From Candidatus Zixiibacteriota bacterium (lineage in GTDB: Bacteria > Zixibacteria > MSB-5A5 > WJJR01), in assembly GCA_040752595.1 (NCBI GenBank), contig JBFMGX010000028.1:1-64000 (forward strand): a DNA stretch of 64,000 nt. The letters are read 5' to 3'. Below the pieces are notes generated by a model that worked only from the letters and a program-made list of their open reading frames with translations, did not search any database and was not told the origin of the DNA. Shown one piece after another: positions 779 through 55,326 of the stretch (the first letter of the stretch is position 1; each line of letters starts with the position of its first letter). Made by a program: the position numbers and the translations under genes.

Positions 779-2398
779 TCACGGCGCGCAGGGATCGCAG
801 AATTCCGTGGTCGGATTCGCGCCGCGGAAGGCAACGTTGACGACCTTCACGACATCCTGCACGGTCGAGAAGCCATCGCAATTCACGTCCGTGCGCTCCC
901 GCGGGCAGTTCGGATCGAAGGCTGGAGCGCTGCCGCGGAAGGCGACATTCACCGTCTGTACCACGTCCTGCACATTCGCAACAGAGTCGCACTGCGGATC
1001 ACCGTGGCACGGGCAGAAGCACTGACTGTACTTGATGGTCGCGAAGTCGTAGTAGAACGTCGCGGCCACGCCGGGGCTCATGCCGGTGACGTAGACGTTG
1101 CCCCTGCGGTCCACCAAGATGTCGGTTGGCTCGTCCCGCTTGTTTCCCGGACCGTTGTATATCAGTGACCAATCGGCACCGCCGTCCGGGTCGTATTTGA
1201 TCGTGCGGTAATCCTCGGTGAGCTCGACGGGGATACCTGGATGCCACACCGTGGACCAGCCGGTGACATACACGTTCCCCGAAGCGTCCACATCGAGCGC
1301 AGAAGCGAAGTCCCAGCCGTGGGCGAAGACGTCGTCGAACCGCCGTTCCCACAGCAGGGTTCCGGCCGGATCGTATTTCAGCGTCGCGTAGTCGTACTGG
1401 GATGAATTGCCATCACTGGTGCCGGCGACAAATGCGTTGCCGCCCGTGTCGACACCGACGGCTTCGGCCCAATCGTGCCAGCCACCAGGTCCATTGTACA
1501 GCCGCGTCCAAAGTGGAGTCCCACTGGGATCGTATTTTGTCGTGGCGTAATCGGTGTTGTTGAGGTTGACCTGACAATAACCCGTGACGAAGACGTTCCC
1601 GGCATCGTCAACGACGAGATCCCGGGGGGTGTCGTCAAGGTTGCCCGGCCCGTTATAGCTCTGGGACCAAAGAAGCGTGCCATCGGTGCTATACTTCACG
1701 GTTAGGTAGTCCCTCCCCACGCCCTGGCTCCAGCCGGTAACGTACACGTTGCCCAGAGCATCCACATCCAGGGCCAGGGCTTCATCATCACCACCGCCGT
1801 CGAAGGTCCGTAACCAGATGGCATTGCCGTCCGGGTCATACTTGACGGTCATGAATTCCAGACTGGTGTAACCCGGGAATCCCATGTGCCAGGCCGTGTA
1901 CCGGCCTGTGACGTAGATGTTTCCTGCCTCGTCAACTTCGAGGGCGTTGGCCACATCTTCCCCGTTGGCGACGAAGTTGTTCTCCCGCCGTTCCCAAACG
2001 AAGGTGCCGGCCGCATCATACTTCAGCGTGGCCCAGTCGGCCTGGGTCCCGCTCCCCGTGCTGAGGCCCGTTACGTAGACGTTCCCCTCAAGGTCCACCC
2101 CGACGTCGTTGGCCTCGTCCAGGCCACTGACGGGTCCGTCATAGAGCACCGCCCAGAGGAGATTACCGTCAGCGTCGTACTTCAGGGTGGCGTAATCGGC
2201 AACGGTGCTTGGATCGTTCACCGTGCCGGCAACATACACGTTGCCCGCTGTGTCCACATCGATGGCGTAGGGCCAATCGTCCTGACTGGGCGGGCCATCG
2301 TACCGTGCGATCCAGTCGGTCTCCACCTGCGCGGACGCGGACGCCGCCAACCACAAGGTCGCAGCCAGTGCGCCGAGTCCCGCCACAATCCTTTTCAC
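779..2398 (-). CDS. Secreted SBBP beta-propeller protein with C-terminal dockerin-like module
   Basis: 539 residues. A GTG start at 2398 is chosen because GGAGGT stands five bases upstream and the product then begins VKRIVAGLG, a proper signal peptide ending near ASASAQ. Residues 30-460 are about eight tandem SBBP repeats (consensus DYATLKYDxxGxxxW, then GNVYVTG), a beta-propeller fold typical of extracellular proteins. The last 80 residues are a dockerin-like pair of calcium loops (DPQCDSVANVQD and DVNCDGFSTVQD) flanked by CPCH and ending CDPCAP. Likely exported and displayed or held in a complex by the dockerin; no catalytic residues are visible. Neighbour at 2478 has the same tail on a different propeller. 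Confidence 0.88.
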   Translation of the reverse strand: MKRIVAGLGALAATLWLAASASAQVETDWIARYDGPPSQDDWPYAIDVDTAGNVYVAGTVNDPSTVADYATLKYDADGNLLWAVLYDGPVSGLDEANDVGVDLEGNVYVTGLSTGSGTQADWATLKYDAAGTFVWERRENNFVANGEDVANALEVDEAGNIYVTGRYTAWHMGFPGYTSLEFMTVKYDPDGNAIWLRTFDGGGDDEALALDVDALGNVYVTGWSQGVGRDYLTVKYSTDGTLLWSQSYNGPGNLDDTPRDLVVDDAGNVFVTGYCQVNLNNTDYATTKYDPSGTPLWTRLYNGPGGWHDWAEAVGVDTGGNAFVAGTSDGNSSQYDYATLKYDPAGTLLWERRFDDVFAHGWDFASALDVDASGNVYVTGWSTVWHPGIPVELTEDYRTIKYDPDGGADWSLIYNGPGNKRDEPTDILVDRRGNVYVTGMSPGVAATFYYDFATIKYSQCFCPCHGDPQCDSVANVQDVVQTVNVAFRGSAPAFDPNCPRERTDVNCDGFSTVQDVVKVVNVAFRGANPTTEFCDPCAP

Positions 2399-2477
2399 TG
2401 CACACCTCCAATAATTGACTGACAACGACATGACGTCGCGACACGCCGTGATTCGCAGAGTACGTCACCACACCGCC

Positions 2478-3860
2478 TCACGGCGCGCAGGGATCGCAGA
2501 ACTCGGTGGCCTTGTCCGCCCCGCGGAAGGCGACGTTGACCATCCTCACCACGTCGTGAACCGTCGTCATGCCGCTGCAGTTGACGTCCGTCTGTTCGTA
2601 GGGGCAAAGCGGGTCGATCGGGGCCGAATCACCGCGGAAGGCGACATCCACAGTCCGCACGACGTCGTGCACCGAGGTTACGCTGTCACACTGCGGGTCC
2701 GCATGACAGACACACGGACACGGTGGCACCGTGCAGTTCATCAACACGGACACGCTGTCGCCGTAGTAATCGGCTACTGCCAAGTCGAGATCGTCATCCC
2801 CATCCAAGTCCGCGATGGAAACCGACTGGGGCCCGTCTCCGGCCGGGTAGTACGGGACGGCCTCAAATGTCCCGTCGCCGTTGTTCCTCAGCACAGACAC
2901 ATTGTCGCTTAACCTGTTCGCAACCACGAGGTCGGCATCTCCATCCCCGTCCAGATCGGCGGCGCGAACGTCCGTGGGGAGGTTCCAGGCCAGATGGAAC
3001 ACTGCCGGCGCAAAGGTCCCATCTCCGTTGTTTGTCAGCACTGCGACGTTCTGGCTGGAGTAGTTGGCCACGGCGAGGTCGGCATCATTGTCGCCATCCA
3101 GATCGGCGGCCGCGACCGATATCGGCGAATCACCAACCGCGAAGCGGATGGCCGCCGCAAAGCTCGCGTCGCCGTTGTTCTTGAGCACCGACACGCTGTC
3201 GGTGTAGAAATTGGCCGTGGCCAAATCGACATCGCTATCCCCGTCCAGATCCGCTGCGAAGACCGACCACGGGGCATCCCCGGCCACGTAGCTCGCCGCC
3301 GCCCCGAATGTCCCATCTCCATTATTCTTCAGCACCCGGACATTGACGCTGAGCGGGTCCGCCGCGGCCAGATCCAGGTCGTGATCCCCGTCCAGGTCGG
3401 CGGCCACGACGGAATAGGGTCCCCCGCCGGTCGTGTAGTTGATCGCGGCCGCAAACGTCCCGTCCCCGTTGTTCTTCAGGACCGAGACACTGGCGCTGAG
3501 ACTGCTGGAATTGGCCACGGCGAGGTCGGCGTCATCATCACCATCCAAATCGGCCACGAAGACCGACATGGGGAGCTCCCCCACGGGGTAGTTGGTCGCC
3601 GCCGCGAAACTCCCGTCACCGTTGTTCATCAGCACCGAGACATAGTTGCTCGACCGGCTGACCACGGCGAGGTCGGCAACACTGTCCCCGTTAAGGTCAG
3701 CAGCAAAGACCGAATACGGAACGTCACCTACAGCCAACGAGCGTCGGGGCTCGAAGCAGATCCCCTGTGCATGGACGGCCCCTGGCGAGAACGTCCCGCC
3801 AGCAGCCGCTACAATCACCGCCACGTGCCCGAGCAGGCGCGCGGCATCGGAGCGACGCAT
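2478..3860 (-). CDS. Secreted FG-GAP/VCBS-repeat protein with C-terminal dockerin-like module
   Basis: 460 residues. Start at 3860 chosen: AGGAGG lies five bases upstream, and the protein then opens MRRSDAARLLG with a hydrophobic signal segment ending near VHAQG. An ATG directly before it (3863) is too close to the Shine-Dalgarno. Seven or so FG-GAP/VCBS repeats follow (pattern SVFAADLDGDxDxDLAVAN, NNGDGTFAAA), each with Asp-rich calcium sites, predicting a beta-propeller. The C-terminus is the dockerin-like module ending CDPCAP. Same architecture as 32264-33478 and 35804-36442, so it is one of a paralogous set. Role in adhesion or surface structure is inference. Confidence 0.88.
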   Translation of the reverse strand: MRRSDAARLLGHVAVIVAAAGGTFSPGAVHAQGICFEPRRSLAVGDVPYSVFAADLNGDSVADLAVVSRSSNYVSVLMNNGDGSFAAATNYPVGELPMSVFVADLDGDDDADLAVANSSSLSASVSVLKNNGDGTFAAAINYTTGGGPYSVVAADLDGDHDLDLAAADPLSVNVRVLKNNGDGTFGAAASYVAGDAPWSVFAADLDGDSDVDLATANFYTDSVSVLKNNGDASFAAAIRFAVGDSPISVAAADLDGDNDADLAVANYSSQNVAVLTNNGDGTFAPAVFHLAWNLPTDVRAADLDGDGDADLVVANRLSDNVSVLRNNGDGTFEAVPYYPAGDGPQSVSIADLDGDDDLDLAVADYYGDSVSVLMNCTVPPCPCVCHADPQCDSVTSVHDVVRTVDVAFRGDSAPIDPLCPYEQTDVNCSGMTTVHDVVRMVNVAFRGADKATEFCDPCAP

Positions 3861-6667: not shown

Positions 6668-6756
6668 ACGGACAATTTACATCATGTGAGGAAGATCACA
6701 ACGACTTTCTTGACCTGCCCCCCGAAGATCGGTCCAGTTGTTATGTTAGGGTCTGA

Positions 6757-6850
6757 GGTTCACCACGAGTTCACCACGAGTGGCGGAGGGAGTGGATCGA
6801 GATAGGACGGGCTCGCCCGCCTGAGGCGGGTATAATCCCGGCCTGCCGAT
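6757..6850 (-). pseudogene. Tyrosine recombinase remnant A (ends at RHSW-stop)
   Basis: The minus strand encodes RPISIHSLRHSW then stop, identical at the protein level to the stretch before the frameshift in the recombinase pseudogene at 10824-11849. It includes the same tandem 11-base duplication TCGTGGTGAAC and then loses all similarity. A 15-base palindrome (CCCGCCTGAGGCGGG, 6816-6830) interrupts the coding similarity. Only the part carrying the catalytic HxxR box remains. Confidence 0.7.
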
Positions 6851-7021
6851 TCCCGCCGATGGAGTATGGTCGCGCGTTCACACTCCCGGGGCGGTTTCGC
6901 GGCATCGGCCAAGAGGAGAATCCGACCCGACACGGACAGATCTGTTCAGAGACCATTGCAATTGCTCGCGGCCTGGCCCACCTTGCGCGGGAACGGCGTG
7001 CTGCTCTGAAGGAGGCCCCCC

Positions 7022-7555
7022 GTGAAACGGATGCTCGCAATCGTGTTGCTCTCTTCAGGAATGGCAAACGCGCAGGACAAGCCGCCTCAACCGGACCGTT
7101 GGGCTCCGTTGCGCCCACTGGTCGGCCGGTGGGAAGGAACGGGATCCAGTCAGGCCGGGACTTCGACTGTCTCCACCGAGTTTGCCCTTGTGCTTGACAG
7201 TCAGTTCATCCGTGTTTCGAATCGGTCGGTCATCGCCCCGCAGGAGAACACTCCCCAAGGTGAAGTTCACGATGACGTTGGTTACATCAGCTTTGACCGG
7301 CAGCGGGACAGGCACGTGCTACGGGAGTTCCTGAGCGAGGGGTACGTGAGTCAATACACGCTGGACAGTGTCGCGACCGAACCGATGATCCTGGTCTTCA
7401 CCTCGGAGGCGCTGGAGAATGCGCCGCCGGGCATGACGGCAAGACTGCGCTATGAATTGTCGGGCGGCGACACGCTCCGATCCTGGTTTGAATTGGCGTT
7501 TCCGGGTAAGGACTTTTCCTGTTTCATCCAGCAGCAGCTCCGCCGAACGCCGTGA
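7022..7555 (+). CDS. Exported nitrobindin/THAP4-like beta-barrel protein (DUF1579/DUF1794-type)
   Basis: 177 residues. GTG at 7022 follows AAGGAGG by seven bases and yields a short signal peptide (VKRMLAIVLLSSGMANAQ). The mature part starts with LRPLVGRWEGTGS, the G-x-W-x-G-x-G signature of nitrobindin-like and DUF1579 ten-stranded barrels, and continues with alternating strands such as EFALVLDSQFIRVSNRS and LREFLSEGYVSQY. Members bind haem or small ligands or have no known function; the haem-ligating His near the C-terminus that true nitrobindins carry is not evident, so no ligand is claimed. It is bounded on both sides by recombinase remnants (6757-6850 and 7565-7650). Confidence 0.72.
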   Translation: MKRMLAIVLLSSGMANAQDKPPQPDRWAPLRPLVGRWEGTGSSQAGTSTVSTEFALVLDSQFIRVSNRSVIAPQENTPQGEVHDDVGYISFDRQRDRHVLREFLSEGYVSQYTLDSVATEPMILVFTSEALENAPPGMTARLRYELSGGDTLRSWFELAFPGKDFSCFIQQQLRRTP

Positions 7556-7564
7556 GGCGACGCC

Positions 7565-7650
7565 GACCGCGGGTGTGACGTAGTGCTCCCGGCACACCAA
7601 CGCCTGACGGACCGACCCATCGCTCACACGGGCACCGATTTCCGTCGTGG
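7565..7650 (-). pseudogene. Tyrosine recombinase remnant B (C-terminal tail)
   Basis: Minus-strand translation reads VTTTEIGARVSDGSVRQAL then REHYVTP, matching the recombinase end ITTTEIYARVSNQALRRAV...TYYAP at 10824 onwards. The catalytic Tyr position is substituted (Tyr to Gly). It begins ten bases after the stop of the nitrobindin-like gene. Not functional. Confidence 0.68.
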
Positions 7651-7679
7651 TTACCTGTGCGTGCCAACAGGCGATTTGA

Positions 7680-7928
7680 TCAGAGGTTGAGGAAGAACAC
7701 GGGTGTGAGTGCGGCGAGCGCCGCTCCGACTTGAAGCGCCAGTACCTGTAGCGCCTGTCTCGGAGCCTGCGGAAGCCACTTGAGCGCGAAGAAGGCGATG
7801 ATTGGCGTCTGCACAGCCATGAGCAATTGGAAGACGTGGGCCGCGGTCCCCTCATCGGCCTCGCGGACAACGCCAAACAGCGCCATGTGACCGAGAACGA
7901 TGGCGAGGGCGGCGAGCGACATCGCCAC
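7680..7928 (-). CDS. Small conserved membrane protein
   Basis: At least 82 residues with three predicted membrane segments (MSLAALAIVLGHMALFGVV, VFQLLMAVQTPIIAFFALKW and LQVLALQVGAALAALTPVFF). The overall layout (short cytoplasmic N-terminus, DEGTAAH before the second helix, LPQAPRQAL before the third) is like unnamed small membrane proteins of many environmental bacteria. The only standard start is GTG 7928 without a good Shine-Dalgarno, yet the frame continues upstream as TIKKPSAFLPVA, which looks like genuine protein; no ATG, GTG or TTG precedes it before a stop. The true start may be a rare codon or may be lost. Function unknown. Confidence 0.6.
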   Translation of the reverse strand: MAMSLAALAIVLGHMALFGVVREADEGTAAHVFQLLMAVQTPIIAFFALKWLPQAPRQALQVLALQVGAALAALTPVFFLNL

Positions 7929-8074
7929 CGGGAGAAAGGCACTTGGCTTCTTGATCGTTATCAGAAGAGTCTTTACAGTCTGCTGCTACCTTGAGGGGTG
8001 CAGCTGAGTTCCGGCATACCGACCCAGCCCGCGGGAATCACCTCGGATATCAGATAATTTCCACCGCGCTGCTG

Positions 8075-8127
8075 AGCCTGTCATCACTGACCCTTGCGTA
8101 GATCTCCGTGGTCGTGGTGTGCCGAAG
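8075..8127 (-). pseudogene. Tyrosine recombinase remnant C
   Basis: The minus strand encodes RHTTTTEIYARVSDDRLS, almost identical to RHITTTEIYARVSNQALR of the recombinase at 10824 onwards, including the putative catalytic Tyr. Flanking sequence does not match. The remainder of the 525-base gap 7928-8453 holds no gene I can support. Confidence 0.7.
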
Positions 8128-8452
8128 ACAAAGGCGGCGATGCTGGCGGAGAGGCGCGTCAGATCAGTACTGCCCAGTCAGCAGTCGCCGTCGACAACGG
8201 GCGGTCGTCCGGAGCATCGACCCCCTCCGGCGAGCGCGGACGCGGCGGTCACGGTACCGGCGCCACATCGTCGTTGTCTACCCGTTCTACGCAGTTGCAG
8301 GCAAAGACCGGAGAGGTTTGTCGAAAGTCAGGCGAGTCTCACGGCCCGCCTGAACTGCTCTTCCCCCGCCCGTACGCAGATCCTCGATCCTGTCCGAACC
8401 GGTACAAAGGATGCGCGGACCGCAGCCGCGCGATCCTGCCGCGACCGTCTCC

Positions 8453-10565: not shown

Positions 10566-10823
10566 GGCAGACCTCCTCTGGATATGGTAGGTTGTGACAA
10601 GACGCGAAGACAGATTCCGCGTGTTGACTTCCGGAACCGGAATACAAGATACACACGCTGGTCAATGAATCAAAGTGAATTCCGCCACGAGAATACGGAC
10701 TTGCGCTGATCACTGACTACGAGAGTCACGCGCAGGACGGTAATCGGGGTTCGGCGTCAGGAACGTGGCTGAGCCGGGCGGCCGGCCCAACTGTGTGGTC
10801 AGTCATCCCGGCGCCTTGATGCT

Positions 10824-11849
10824 CTACAGTCCTTTGGGAGCGTAATAGGTCTTCCTCCCCACCGCCCGCCGCAACGCCTGATTTGACACCCGCGCATAGA
10901 TCTCCGTCGTCGTGATATGCCGGTGGCCGAGGGCGCGCTGGACCGGGTACAGGTCGCCGGTTTTCTCGTACAGCCGGGTGGCGAAGGTGTGGTTCACCAC
11001 GAGTTCACCACGAGTGGCGGAGGGAGTGGATGGAGATAGGTCGGGCAATACCGGCCTTGCGGCACAGGGCGGCGAACCGCAGTTGGATCGGCCGCGGACA
11101 CAGGCGTGTCCCCCACCGGCTGCGAAACAGGGGCGTGTCGGGGCCACAGTTGGCTTCAGGGGCGCTTTCTTTGAGGAACCGCCCCAACAGGCGCACCGGT
11201 TGGGGATTGAGGAACACCCGCTCCTCTCCCCCGCCCTTGGTGCGGATGTGCAGGGTCCCGGACTTCAGGTCGACATCTCCCCTGTTCAGAGCCACAAGCG
11301 ACCCCAAACGGATGCTAGTCCCGAGGAGCAGCTCGAAGATCAGGCGGCCACGCTTGCGGTGAGCGAAGTCGAACCGGCAGGCGAGCCCGCCTCGGCGCAC
11401 AGGTGTCTCAGTTCGGTCAGATAGGGCTTGTCTGAGACACCCGATCTCCGCCTCGGTCAGCGTCGCCGGCTCTTTGGCCGCTGTCCGTGCCAACCGGCTC
11501 AGCCGGGCTGAGTTCTCCCGGATCCAGCCCGATTCCAGGCGGAACCCAAAGAATGACCGCCGCCCCGACTTGGCGCGGTTGACAGTGATCGGCTTGCGGG
11601 GAGAGCCGGAGGAGGTGAGCAGGAACTGGTCGGACACCAAAAACCATGCCAGATCGTCGGGGCTGATCCGGCGGACATGGGGGTCATGCCCGCCAAAGGC
11701 GGGTAAACCCGGCCCCTCGCGCTGTGCACTCGGGGTGAACCACCGCCCCAACGACGCCGAATCCCTGCGGTACGCCGCCGGGTGTGCCCAGGTCGCCCGT
11801 CCGCCGCCTGTTGACGGGCGAACCCTGCGATCGCCGCTTCAAGCTTCAT
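10824..11849 (-). pseudogene. Tyrosine recombinase (XerC/D-like integrase) pseudogene, copy D
   Basis: The most complete copy. ATG 11849 follows GGGGAGG on the minus strand and starts MKLEAAIAGFARQQAADGR (SAM-like N-terminal domain); the frame then shifts. The middle reads SPRKPITVNRAKSGRRSFFGF, LTEAEIGCLRQAL, LLGTSIRLGSLVALNRGDVD and HSLRHSW-stop. After a tandem TCGTGGTGAAC duplication (22 bases) the frame resumes as FATRLYEKTGDLYPVQRALGHRHITTTEIYARVS and ends TYYAPKGL at 10824. The catalytic Arg (IRLGSL region), HxxR, H and Tyr are all recognisable, but at least two frameshifts and an insertion near 11385-11420 (RRGGLACRFDFAHRKRG) kill it. It is the reference for all other remnants in this window. 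Confidence 0.85.
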
Positions 11850-12049
11850 CTGCCCAACCTCCCCCGCCCGCATCACTTCATCGATTGAACGGCGAAGAAG
11901 TCAAGTCGAAGAAGCGGCCTTCTTCGCAGAATTCTGTGGGAGGTGGAGGCCGACATCCCCTTGACCACGTGACGGAAAGCGCTATCTTGCCTGTGTAGAC
12001 TGGTCGTCAGTCCCGAGACCCATACACTCAATTGACGCGGGAGGAGTCC

Positions 12050-30067: not shown

Positions 30068-30140
30068 AGTCAGACCGTTGGTGTTGCGCGCCGCAACACC
30101 TGATTGCCAACCGCGCGTAGACCCCGGTTGTCGTGATCTG
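30068..30140 (-). pseudogene. Tyrosine recombinase remnant E
   Basis: The minus strand reads RQITTTGVYARL, then after a one-base shift GNQVLRRA, equal to the tail HITTTEIYARVSNQALRRA of the recombinase at 10824. It lies between the kinase start and the small membrane-protein gene. Confidence 0.65.
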
Positions 30141-30234
30141 CCGGCGGTCCAATCCCTGTGGACCCAGGAGAGTTGGACGGCCCGCTCAAGGGAAGATCGC
30201 CGGGACCGATCTTCTACTTGTGGAGGGTGCCACC

Positions 30235-30700: not shown

Positions 30701-31483
30701 TCACCGTGAGGTGGGTAACGCGCTGACCTGCGCCAGAAAACGCGTGAACAACTCCATCCCCGGCCAGGTCTGCCGCCGCAAGGCACCGTGTCTTTCCACC
30801 CATCGGGGCGCCAACGTCAGGGGAATCAGACGCGGCGCGTCGTTCGCCAATTCCGCGACCAACCTGGCCAGCGCCGCCGAGATCGGCTGCGGCATCGGCA
30901 CCTTCATGATCGGATTGTTGATCGGATCGACGCACCACGCCGCCGGCGACGTCACGTTGTGTTCCCGGCAGGCCGTGGGACGGTGAGGATGGATGCCGCA
31001 GGACTCGTCGACCAGAAAGGGACAGGGAATCCCCAGAGCAAAGTAGTGCGGCGCGACTTCGAGGGCCCGCTCATCATCGTAATTGTCGGAAAGAAACAGT
31101 TCCACAAGACGGGCAGCGACCAGACGCTTTTCAGCCGTTTGAAACCGCGACAGTACTTCGTGCCGACTCGCTTCCGCCCACGTCTCAATCCGGTCCATCA
31201 GATAGAAACACTCAGGGGCCGAAAGGGCGACCATTTGCCGGCAACAGGCCCCGCATTTGGCCCGGCAGGAGATCGCCCGCCCCGCTTTCTGTTCACGGCG
31301 ACTCGCCAAGGCGACCGTGATGTCTGTCAATTCGAGCGCCAGGGGAACCAGATCCCCCAACGACATTGGCCCCGGGTCGATGTGAACCGTACCCCTAATC
31401 TCGCCGTCAGGCGTCGAAATCGAGACTCGCACAGCCACCGCCCCGCCCGGTGATTCCGGTGCCTGATTCGTGCTCTCGCCCAT
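30701..31483 (-). CDS. YkgJ-family cysteine-cluster (putative zinc/iron-binding) protein
   Basis: 260 residues from ATG 31483 (GGGGGAA upstream). The centre has the family's cysteine pattern: C73-x3-CGACC (Cys77, 80, 81) followed by RQMVALSAPE, then CPFLVDESCGIHPHRPTACREH (Cys154, 162 and 172). Such proteins (YkgJ, formerly UPF0153) bind a metal or Fe-S centre; their function is mostly unknown, with some acting in protein modification. The N-terminal 60 residues are not recognised. The gene stands alone between recombinase remnants F and G. Confidence 0.8.
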   Translation of the reverse strand: MGESTNQAPESPGGAVAVRVSISTPDGEIRGTVHIDPGPMSLGDLVPLALELTDITVALASRREQKAGRAISCRAKCGACCRQMVALSAPECFYLMDRIETWAEASRHEVLSRFQTAEKRLVAARLVELFLSDNYDDERALEVAPHYFALGIPCPFLVDESCGIHPHRPTACREHNVTSPAAWCVDPINNPIMKVPMPQPISAALARLVAELANDAPRLIPLTLAPRWVERHGALRRQTWPGMELFTRFLAQVSALPTSR

Positions 31484-31579
31484 GGTTCCCCCGCTGCGGA
31501 TCACAGCATTCCCGGCTACGATTAGCGCGCGGCGAGATCATCGTCAACCGAAATCCATACCGCGGAGAAAGCGCTTCAC

Positions 31580-31625
31580 TCGCGACGCACCGCCCGCCGG
31601 AGCGCCTGATCTGACACCCCGGCAT
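31580..31625 (-). pseudogene. Tyrosine recombinase remnant G
   Basis: Minus strand gives GVSDQALRRAVRR, the end of the recombinase ARVSNQALRRAVGR. Its upstream side is cut by the MITE-like copy beginning at about 31628. Confidence 0.65.
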
Positions 31626-31627
31626 GG

Positions 31628-31804
31628 CAGGTTGCTGGAAGACACATGGGAGTGGTCCCTCGCGCCCATTTGTCATCCCGAGTCCGCCCATGGCGGACGA
31701 GGGATCTGCTGTTTCTCCGATGAGAGGAAAGCAGATTCTTCGCCCCGCCAGAGAGCGGCGGGGCCCAGAATGACATGGATGGTCCTTTGTCAGCATCCCG
31801 CTAA
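31628..31804. repeat. MITE-like element, copy 1, with internal GTCAT palindromic repeat
   Basis: The left end caggttgctggaagacacat and right end tttgtcagcatcccgctaac are imperfect inverted copies and resemble the ends of copy 2 (31880-32049). Inside lies a palindromic repeat from TGTCATCCCGAG (31671) to CAGAATGACA (31775), with stems around CCCCGCC/GGCGGGG. It is non-coding, and its left end abuts remnant G. Confidence 0.6.
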
Positions 31805-31879: not shown

Positions 31880-32049
31880 TAACAGGCTGCTGAAAAACAC
31901 CATAGGAAGCCTTGAAAACGGGTCTGTCATGCTGAGCGAAGCGAAGCATCTGCTTCCCCTCCCCTATGAAGAAACAGCAGATTCTTCACCCCGCCGAAGA
32001 GCGGCGGGGTTCAGAATGACAGTGTCGGATGGTTTTTCAGCAACCTGCT
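31880..32049. repeat. MITE-like element, copy 2
   Basis: 170 bases with terminal inverted repeats: taacaggctgctgaaaaaca at the left and tttttcagcaacctgcta at the right. The interior runs from TGTCATGCTGAGC to CAGAATGACA with a CCCCGCC/GGCGGGG stem. The CAGGCTGCTGAAAAA end type is common among insertion-sequence-derived elements. No transposase is encoded. The rest of 31484-32263 has no gene. Confidence 0.65.
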
Positions 32050-34284: not shown

Positions 34285-34294
34285 TCCAAATGAC

Positions 34295-34355
34295 AGCCTA
34301 TCGCAGGACAGTACCGCTCACCCGTACGTGAATCGCGGGCATCGTCACATGCCGA
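34295..34355 (-). pseudogene. Tyrosine recombinase remnant H
   Basis: Minus strand: RHVTMPAIHVRVSGTVLR-stop-AV, which lines up with RHITTTEIYARVSNQALRRAV without gaps. About half the residues have changed, making it one of the oldest copies. Confidence 0.6.
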
Positions 34356-34586
34356 TTCCCAGCACCCTCTGAACGAGTGACCGAACGCAGCTCACTGCAC
34401 TTCGCTCCTCTGGCCCGCTGCGATCACGGGCATCCCAGCGGTGCCAGGATTCCAGGATTGCTGTACGATCCGGGCACCATGCGCGGCCCGACCGGCACGC
34501 CCGGTGCGGCCGGCAAGTCCGATTCGATCTGAAAGTTCAGTGTGCAGTCCGTTCCCAGAGAGCCGCAGACGTAGGCCTTGATACTG

Positions 34587-34806: not shown

Positions 34807-35031
34807 AGATGAAAATCGTCATCTTGGCGGCGAAGACACCCATATCGTCGGGATGCTCGAGTGCCCCAAAAGTACAATCCCGCGCACAGGATGAGGCGGT
34901 CAGATGAGAGACAGTGCCGGCCTCAGAGTGTCGTCTGATGACGTTGCAGGGATCACTGTCGTTGTCATCTGCCAATGCCACAGCGCCCGCCGGGTGATGA
35001 GCTGTTGGCAAGATGAGGAGACTCACACATA

Positions 35032-35571
35032 TTGACGCCGGAGGTGCTGTCGTTGGCAGCGCGGGACATTCTTCTGCTCGGCAACCCGAAGCTGTATTTG
35101 CCGTCCGAACCCGTCACCCGGGAGGAAGCCGATTCCCTTCGGCCTGTCGTGCAGGACTTGCACGACACACTGATGGACTTCCGACAGCGATGGGGTGCGG
35201 GACGCGCGATAGCCGCTCCCCAGATCGGCGTCAGGAAGAGACTGGTCTATATGTGCATCGATTCCCCGGTCGTGTTCGTCAACCCGCGCCTCGAGAATCT
35301 CAGCGAGGAGCGGTTCGAACTCTGGGATGACTGCATGTCGTTTCCTGATCTGTTAGTCAAGGTTGAACGGCACCGGCGTTGTCGGATCATCTTCCGTGAC
35401 CTGGAATGGAAAGAGCACTCGCTCACGGTCACCGATGCCTTGTCCGAACTGCTCCAACATGAATGCGACCACTTGGATGGTATTCTTGCCATTGACCGTG
35501 CCATTGACCGGCGATCTCTCGCCTACCGAAGCCAGCGGGCGTTCTTGGCAGATGGTGGGCCAACGAGATGA
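35032..35571 (+). CDS. def: Peptide deformylase-family protein (divergent)
   Basis: 179 residues from TTG 35032 (GAGGAGA nine to ten bases upstream). Deformylases remove the formyl group of nascent proteins with a bound metal. The three motifs are present in diverged form: GRAIAAPQIG (usual GxGLAAxQ), WDDCMSFP (usual EGCLS; the metal Cys is kept) and LQHECDHLDG (HExxH intact, with two His ligands and the catalytic Glu). The WDDC version belongs to a subgroup seen beside, not instead of, the housekeeping enzyme, so its substrate may differ. It stands alone among pseudogenes. Confidence 0.86.
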   Translation: MTPEVLSLAARDILLLGNPKLYLPSEPVTREEADSLRPVVQDLHDTLMDFRQRWGAGRAIAAPQIGVRKRLVYMCIDSPVVFVNPRLENLSEERFELWDDCMSFPDLLVKVERHRRCRIIFRDLEWKEHSLTVTDALSELLQHECDHLDGILAIDRAIDRRSLAYRSQRAFLADGGPTR

Positions 35572-35599: not shown

Positions 35600-35745
35600 G
35601 CCTGATCACACGGCCTTTGCCACACTCCGCCCAAGCGCCTGATCCGCGCGCTGCGACATGGTCCCGTCGGCATCCCCTGTCGAGAACAAGGGCGGCGATC
35701 AGTCACCACGAATGGCGAAGGGAGTGGATCGAGATTCGACGCCCG
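35600..35745 (-). pseudogene. Tyrosine recombinase remnant I/J
   Basis: Two pieces of one decayed copy. 35705-35745 (minus) matches the DNA coding for IHSLRHSW in the 10824 pseudogene, including a single TCGTGGTGA. After about 45 unrelated bases, 35600-35660 reads RADQALGRSVAKA, the tail (ARVSNQALRRAVGR). The piece between (FATRLY...TEIY) is missing. Confidence 0.6.
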
Positions 35746-35803
35746 ATGCGAGGTGCGCAGGGCTGCGACCCACGAGACTTGGTCCCTTTGCTGTCGTGTC
35801 ACC

Positions 35804-55222: not shown

Positions 55223-55326
55223 GTCATTCCGAGGCCTGCTGTTCTTTGGCGGGGCGAGGAATCTGCTTTCCTCTCACAAAGGAAGCAGCAGACCCCTCGT
55301 CCGCCATGGGCGGACTCGGGATGACA
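55223..55326. repeat. GTCAT-type palindromic repeat
   Basis: From GTCATTCCGAGGCC to CTCGGGATGACA, with a long imperfect stem (GGCGGGGCGAGGAATCTGC/GCAGACCCCTCGTCCGCC type). Same family as 31671-31775, 31927-32026 and 52905-53011. It separates the lyase gene from the dehydrogenase gene. Confidence 0.7.

Follow-up and report, generated by a model that had tools for sequence, protein, structure and literature searches.

Why should single small genes lie between fragments of an integrase gene, and could the 3′ end of such a gene serve as the point at which DNA is exchanged? This question is raised by the window analysed here, the first 64 kb of a 124.8-kb contig (C28) in a 2.9-Mb Zixibacteria genome (G000), of which a preliminary description had proposed that units of a gene plus an integrase tail recall cassettes.

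Integrase remnants and small genes in the window

Remnants were located by DNA and protein searches, followed by DNA profile models built from intact integrase copies in relatives. All lie on the minus strand, and most are 3′ ends (hereafter tails) of one gene encoding an XerC/D-like tyrosine recombinase: B, C, E, F and the two additional tails of Table 1, with the two possible extra tails being marginal. The remnants were found at the positions previously given, except that A cannot be retained as a tail, being a 59-nt internal piece that runs into a CTCGTGGTGAAC repeat. The DNA profile search returned no other remnants in the remaining 89 kb of contig C28, nor in the 61 kb past the window.

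Table 1. Integrase remnants, small genes and repeats of the window. The nhmmer E-values come from the DNA model run over 16 contigs.
Feature	Position	Strand	Evidence or remark
Remnant A, internal integrase piece of 59 nt to the HSLRH codons, joined to CTCGTGGTGAAC repeat	6754–6812	-	95% identity to D; no 3′ tail
CTCGTGGTGAAC repeat	6758–6782
Nitrobindin-like gene, 177 aa	7022–7555	+	THAP4_heme-bd, Pfam E=3e-4, 21 bits, below the cut-off of 25
Remnant B, decayed integrase 3′ tail, open frame	7597–7664	-	nhmmer E=2e-4; reads QVTTTEIGARVSDGSVRQAL
Small gene, 82 aa	7680–7928	-	ORF; no Pfam match
Remnant C, integrase 3′ tail with TGA at end	8043–8128	-	nhmmer E=2e-12; reads TTTTEIYARVSDDRLSSAV
Possible extra tail, marginal	8320–8382	-	nhmmer E=0.06
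Remnant D, XerC/D-like integrase pseudogene, nearly full-length	10823–11850	-	Frame breaks; 25-nt insertion after HSLRH
CTCGTGGTGAAC repeat	10992–11016
Remnant E, integrase 3′ tail	30075–30171	-	nhmmer E=1e-7
Small gene, 93 aa	30235–30516	+	ORF; no family match
Remnant F, integrase 3′ tail, long-left-arm type, start within HTFATRLY codons	30597–30701	-	nhmmer E=2e-15
CxxCxxCC-domain gene, stop abutting remnant F (distance 0)	30701–31504	-	Pfam PF03692 E=1e-6
Possible extra tail, marginal	31575–31625	-	nhmmer E=0.03; BLAST E=1e-5 against D
Inverted repeat of 104 nt, first arm	31671–31774		86% complementary to second arm
Related copy of inverted repeat	31960–32021
Additional integrase 3′ tail	34288–34377	-	nhmmer E=7e-5
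Additional integrase 3′ tail, open frame to TGA	34900–34990	-	nhmmer E=2e-10
Peptide deformylase gene, tail on one side and internal integrase piece on the other	35032–35571	+	Pfam PF01327 E=2e-36
Internal integrase piece, stops at HSLRH as remnant A does; no 3′ tail	35708–35749	-	nhmmer E=0.009; BLAST E=1e-5 against D
Inverted repeat of 104 nt, second arm	55223–55326		86% complementary to first arm

The 82-aa and 93-aa genes do lie between B and C and between E and F, respectively, as the preliminary description had it. The nitrobindin-like gene is likewise positioned between A and B, but because A is no integrase tail it is flanked by one tail (B) and one unlike fragment, not bracketed by two tails. 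Remnant B indeed begins shortly after a stop codon, about 16 nt from that of the 82-aa gene; its other end is 42 nt from the nitrobindin stop. Since no homologue of the nitrobindin-like gene is present in the eight nearest relatives (G001–G008) and distant families hold ones of about 40% identity, sequence comparison suggests that the gene is foreign to its family and was probably acquired. A syntenic counterpart of the 6.7–8.1-kb region was not found in four relatives.

Two kinds of repeat also occur in the window. The short repeat with CTCGTGGTGAAC, single or tandem, is dispersed in the genome (contigs C15, C22, C47 and C48 in addition to the window), being present outside integrase sequence on C48, C15 and C47, and a repeat of this type interrupts pseudogene D. 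The 104-nt inverted repeat pair suggests a small interspersed element.

Tail pattern across six genomes

We surveyed 16 contigs, chosen for their integrase matches, from six genomes of uncultured Zixibacteria. About 40 fragments on these contigs retain the 3′ end of the gene, as against one that is 5′-only (G002 C12, 8278–8400), with internal pieces being represented by one on C8, by remnant A and by the piece at 35.7 kb; the same 3′ bias was obtained in a protein search of the own genome that used nearly the whole protein as query. The orientation of all copies is constant within each contig (43/43 steps), and the nearest tail within 5 kb of an integrase lies downstream of it in 11/11 cases (p=0.001). 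The arrangement is not due to chance, and it extends past the window.

The left ends of the tails recur at a preferred place about 100 nt before the stop codon: 15 of 39 fall within model positions 194–206 (13 nt; p=1e-5 against a uniform spread over 138–243), a boundary known to a few nucleotides at best, since local-alignment starts can drift to conserved positions. The boundary is not a single one, as a second group of tails begins at the HTFATRLY codons. At the left ends homology stops sharply, the 30 nt upstream resembling the integrase no more than random sequence does in nearly all tails.

Many tails keep an open frame up to the stop codon, and together they form a graded series of decay. 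Codon changes between tails and their nearest intact gene are 165 synonymous to 152 nonsynonymous, as compared to 789:307 between intact integrases, and the tails were therefore coding until rather recently and have been decaying since. Judged from these codons, the tails are clearly former coding ends of the integrase gene.

The idea that the remnants fold into conserved hairpins was not borne out. Neither the tails nor the integrase 3′ end contains a conserved hairpin, their folds being no better than those of shuffles or of other gene parts (mean z of the 3′ ends of intact copies: -0.7 for the top and -0.5 for the bottom strand, values also spanned by other stretches of the gene), and there were no Rfam matches. 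This agrees with the preliminary description in that no attC-like site is evident. GC skew, examined for replication-linked tail orientation, is weak. Tail edges that come to 60 nt or less from a predicted gene end face a stop in 28 of 35 cases; tail enrichment between convergent genes gave no clear signal (12/59 versus 36/238).

The intact integrase gene

Intact copies of the parent gene occur in G005, a family-level relative, which carries six of them plus three that are damaged or partial; the full-length G005 copies share 62–66% protein identity with D. Four aligned copies (three from G005 and one from G006) show 81–84% identity to the first, with the tyrosine-recombinase motifs retained. 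The protein belongs to the Pfam families Phage_integrase (PF00589) and SAM-like N-terminal (PF02899), and its best NCBIfam and PDB matches are XerC/XerD, with a score (183 of 335 bits) that falls far short of the equivalog cut-offs. A DNA search of 132 genomes of the class gave matches confined to six genomes of one order, plus one weak match. The only named close relative with the same integrase is a Candidatus Zixiibacteriota MAG, and searches of phages, plasmids and viral contigs gave no close relative above 60% identity.

Copies of the integrase begin sharply at a common left end, 48 nt upstream of the start codon, and have unrelated flanks, with a right end that is variable except for one type common to four copies. 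That right end lies 59 nt beyond the stop codon; C30 has it at one integrase, C93 at two (at one of these in part) and C5 at one tail. In ten copies from G005 and G006 identity is about 84% between the start codon and position 830 or so, drops to 44% over the last 25 nt before the stop and reaches background level past it. By alignment, the common right end and the divergent last codons fit a renewal of the 3′ end, and could also reflect a naturally variable C-terminus. Reduced synonymous change was not seen at the putative crossover core, the 3′ end of the gene being more variable, not less.

Genes between tails

Intervals between tails mostly hold one small gene in either orientation and rarely an integrase of their own; many are 0.2–1 kb long and some several kb. 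Their cargo includes RRM proteins, DinB, hemerythrin, SnoaL, an esterase, peptide deformylase, cold-shock proteins (named by eye from sequence) and unknowns. Four cargo families are each found next to tails in two genomes, with three of these four pairs spanning different genera: SnoaL in G003 and G005, CBM48 in G002 and G003, a 38-aa gene in G002 and G005 (and also in G006, farther from a tail) and, within one genus, RRM in G000 and G002. In G005 the 38-aa gene forms a complete unit that occupies the 258 nt exactly between two tails; sequences resembling a promoter and a terminator were read in it by eye.

Cargo families are shared between genomes, in different order, and the tails are genome-specific. 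Between tails beside homologous cargo the identity is 0.47–0.63, where all pairs average 0.62, and the closest tail to each is mostly one from its own genome and not the partner's. The CBM48 gene is seen with and without a tail, tail-less homologues being present in at least five genomes, and the mutual homology of the CBM48 paralogues of G002 ends where the tail begins. Because tails cluster by genome and CBM48 homologues without tails exist, gene and tail do not form a fixed travelling unit; we reject such a unit, and the cassette idea of the preliminary description is supported in part only. This leaves two options: tails were joined to cargo independently in each genome, or every event swaps the tail part with the resident integrase, as would follow from a crossover inside the tail, itself putative. 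No empty site, circular form or before-and-after pair was found, and two G005 integrases have flanks to which nothing in G006 corresponds, without synteny there.

Proposed accretion at the integrase 3′ end and competing explanations

We consider the best explanation to be accretion at the end of the integrase coding sequence, where small DNA segments would have been inserted repeatedly, and give it a nearly even chance of being right; it is also the most economical account, in which we infer the recombination step. A multi-copy XerC/D-like recombinase would recognise its own gene's 3′ end as attachment region. Short segments, as a rule a single small gene that brings its own signals and may face either way, would enter by site-specific recombination at a putative core (about codons VQRALGH), presumably through circular intermediates, and would be mobilised in trans. 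Each insert would bring a replacement 3′ end of about 95–150 nt up to the stop codon; since the insert carries this end, the integrase gene would be restored and the old 3′ end displaced downstream, where it would decay into a tail. Repeated rounds would then build arrays of the form integrase-gene-tail-gene-tail. As for the suggestion that the integrase 3′ end is the exchange point, its role as a recurrent boundary between small genes is supported across six genomes, with a preferred left end, a single orientation per contig and downstream tails, while the recombination itself remains conjectural. Accretion is also favoured by the 3′ bias, the recent coding status of the tails, the integrase bodies that are alike up to divergent 3′ ends, the genome-specific tails beside shared cargo and the 38-aa gene unit of G005. 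Against accretion, the proposed core is conserved no further than its codons, the left boundary is not single, cargo homologues without tails exist, no empty site came to light, the variable C-terminus could be ordinary, and the contigs had been chosen for integrase matches.

The main rival, and a serious one, takes the integrase for an IS-like single-gene element, inserted repeatedly in plastic defence islands and decayed with 5′ loss, the small genes being ordinary island genes. Copies with a sharp left end at -48 nt in unrelated flanks would suit such an element, as would the graded decay of the tails, the cargo homologues that have none, and the large ordinary genes and restriction systems that the islands also carry. 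Random decay should nonetheless give 5′ and 3′ fragments in equal number, where about 40:1 was seen, and should show no polarity, where 11:0 was seen; nor does it predict the recurrent left boundary. The 3′ bias and the polarity disfavour this reading, which we judge unlikely. Alternatively, larger integrative elements or islands may have entered at the integrase 3′ end, as happens at tRNA or ssrA genes, and later shrunk to single genes; the tails would then be their attR-type scars, with no cassette-sized mobile unit. Islands of this kind are known to leave displaced 3′ ends on the same strand, downstream of their target (PMC3146451), and intervals of several kb fit such an origin, but the many one-gene intervals of 0.2–1 kb and the scarcity of integrases within intervals make this origin improbable.

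Chromosomal integrons too have single small genes bounded by sites peculiar to a taxon (PMC8352920), and the arrays could be read as degenerate integron arrays in which tails mark attC positions. None of the six genomes encodes an IntI integrase over the cut-off of TIGR02249, the matches splitting at the IntI-specific insertion (profile 180–240), and the Zixibacteria integrase family itself reaches 81 of 265 bits. The tails are clearly coding-sequence remnants and have no hairpin better than shuffles. Folding and integrase tests have already largely refuted the integron reading, to which we give almost no credence.

Accretion at the integrase 3′ end could amount to a non-integron form of bacterial gene capture, in which the end of an XerC/D-like integrase gene is both the docking site of cassettes and the part that each cassette renews, the separators being outdated integrase ends; we advance this wider claim tentatively, as somewhat doubtful.

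Comparison with known systems

attC sites are imperfect inverted repeats that fold as single-strand hairpins. Folding of either strand revealed no hairpins of this type at integrase 3′ ends. Mostly single-gene units with sites in one orientation do form an integron-type array here, with cargo of mixed orientation. As in integrons, for whose chromosomal forms taxon-specific sites are known (PMC8352920), small genes are parted by taxon-specific sites of one orientation next to a tyrosine recombinase, and cargo families are common to genomes whose sites are specific to each. Unlike in integrons, what parts the genes is the recombinase gene's own 3′ coding end, without an attC-like hairpin, the recombinase is XerC/D-like and lacks the IntI insertion, and cargo occurs in both orientations.

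The ssrA islands of Dehalococcoides are tandem islands with the same scar pattern at another target (PMC3146451). Islands at tRNA or ssrA 3′ ends resemble the arrays in that repeated target 3′ ends lie downstream, in one orientation, and bound variable cargo; displaced 3′ ends of this kind, as expected of tandem-accretion islands, are what we observed (11/11; 43/43 steps). The arrays differ in that the target is the integrase gene itself and the inserts are mostly single genes without an integrase.

Suicidal integrases of the SSV/pTN3/pT26-2 type, which the open-access literature describes as exclusively archaeal, split their gene into int(N) and int(C) (PMC8371274). They share with the present case an attachment site inside the integrase gene (a putative one here), int fragments as chromosomal scars and a link to gene capture (PMC8371274), whereas the bacterial gene stays full-length and int(N) fragments are nearly absent: full-length genes lie directly upstream of tails, and one 5′-only fragment stands against about 40 tails. 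The Pfam search gave PF00589 and PF02899 for the integrase, and Phage_integr_3 (PF16795) was absent. With the chromosomal recombinases XerC/XerD the integrase shares family and catalytic motifs, but it is multi-copy and far below the equivalog cut-offs.

If the accretion reading is true, integron-like arrays arose a second time, from an Xer-type recombinase and without hairpin attC sites. Self-targeting integrases, described as exclusively archaeal (PMC8371274), would likewise gain a bacterial counterpart that keeps its gene whole. Genome-specific tails beside common genes offer a readable case for how cassettes acquire their sites, an open question for integrons.

Other genes adjoining tails and integrases

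Genes like Ser/Thr kinases, or the starts of such genes, adjoin tails or an integrase in several genomes (L015 3369–3950; C28 27334–30018; L067 near 6900; G002 C12 5140–6879), which may be chance because the family is large. On contig C10 of G000 (L015), a Cas12b-like effector of 710 aa (1240–3372, minus strand; PADLOC E=4e-95) lies at the end of the tail array and adjoins a CRISPR array of 10 repeats (about 155–840). A derivation of this CRISPR repeat from the integrase was considered and rejected, the match being no better than chance. Next to the partial integrase of the same contig is a fragment of an IS3-like transposase, identified by eye (7697–8056). Directly upstream of intact integrases lie defence-type genes (L072 2288–5545, L073 6003–9089 and L079 8882–9484), comprising an HKD and Snf2 helicase, a type IIG restriction-methylation gene and a restriction-like ATPase.
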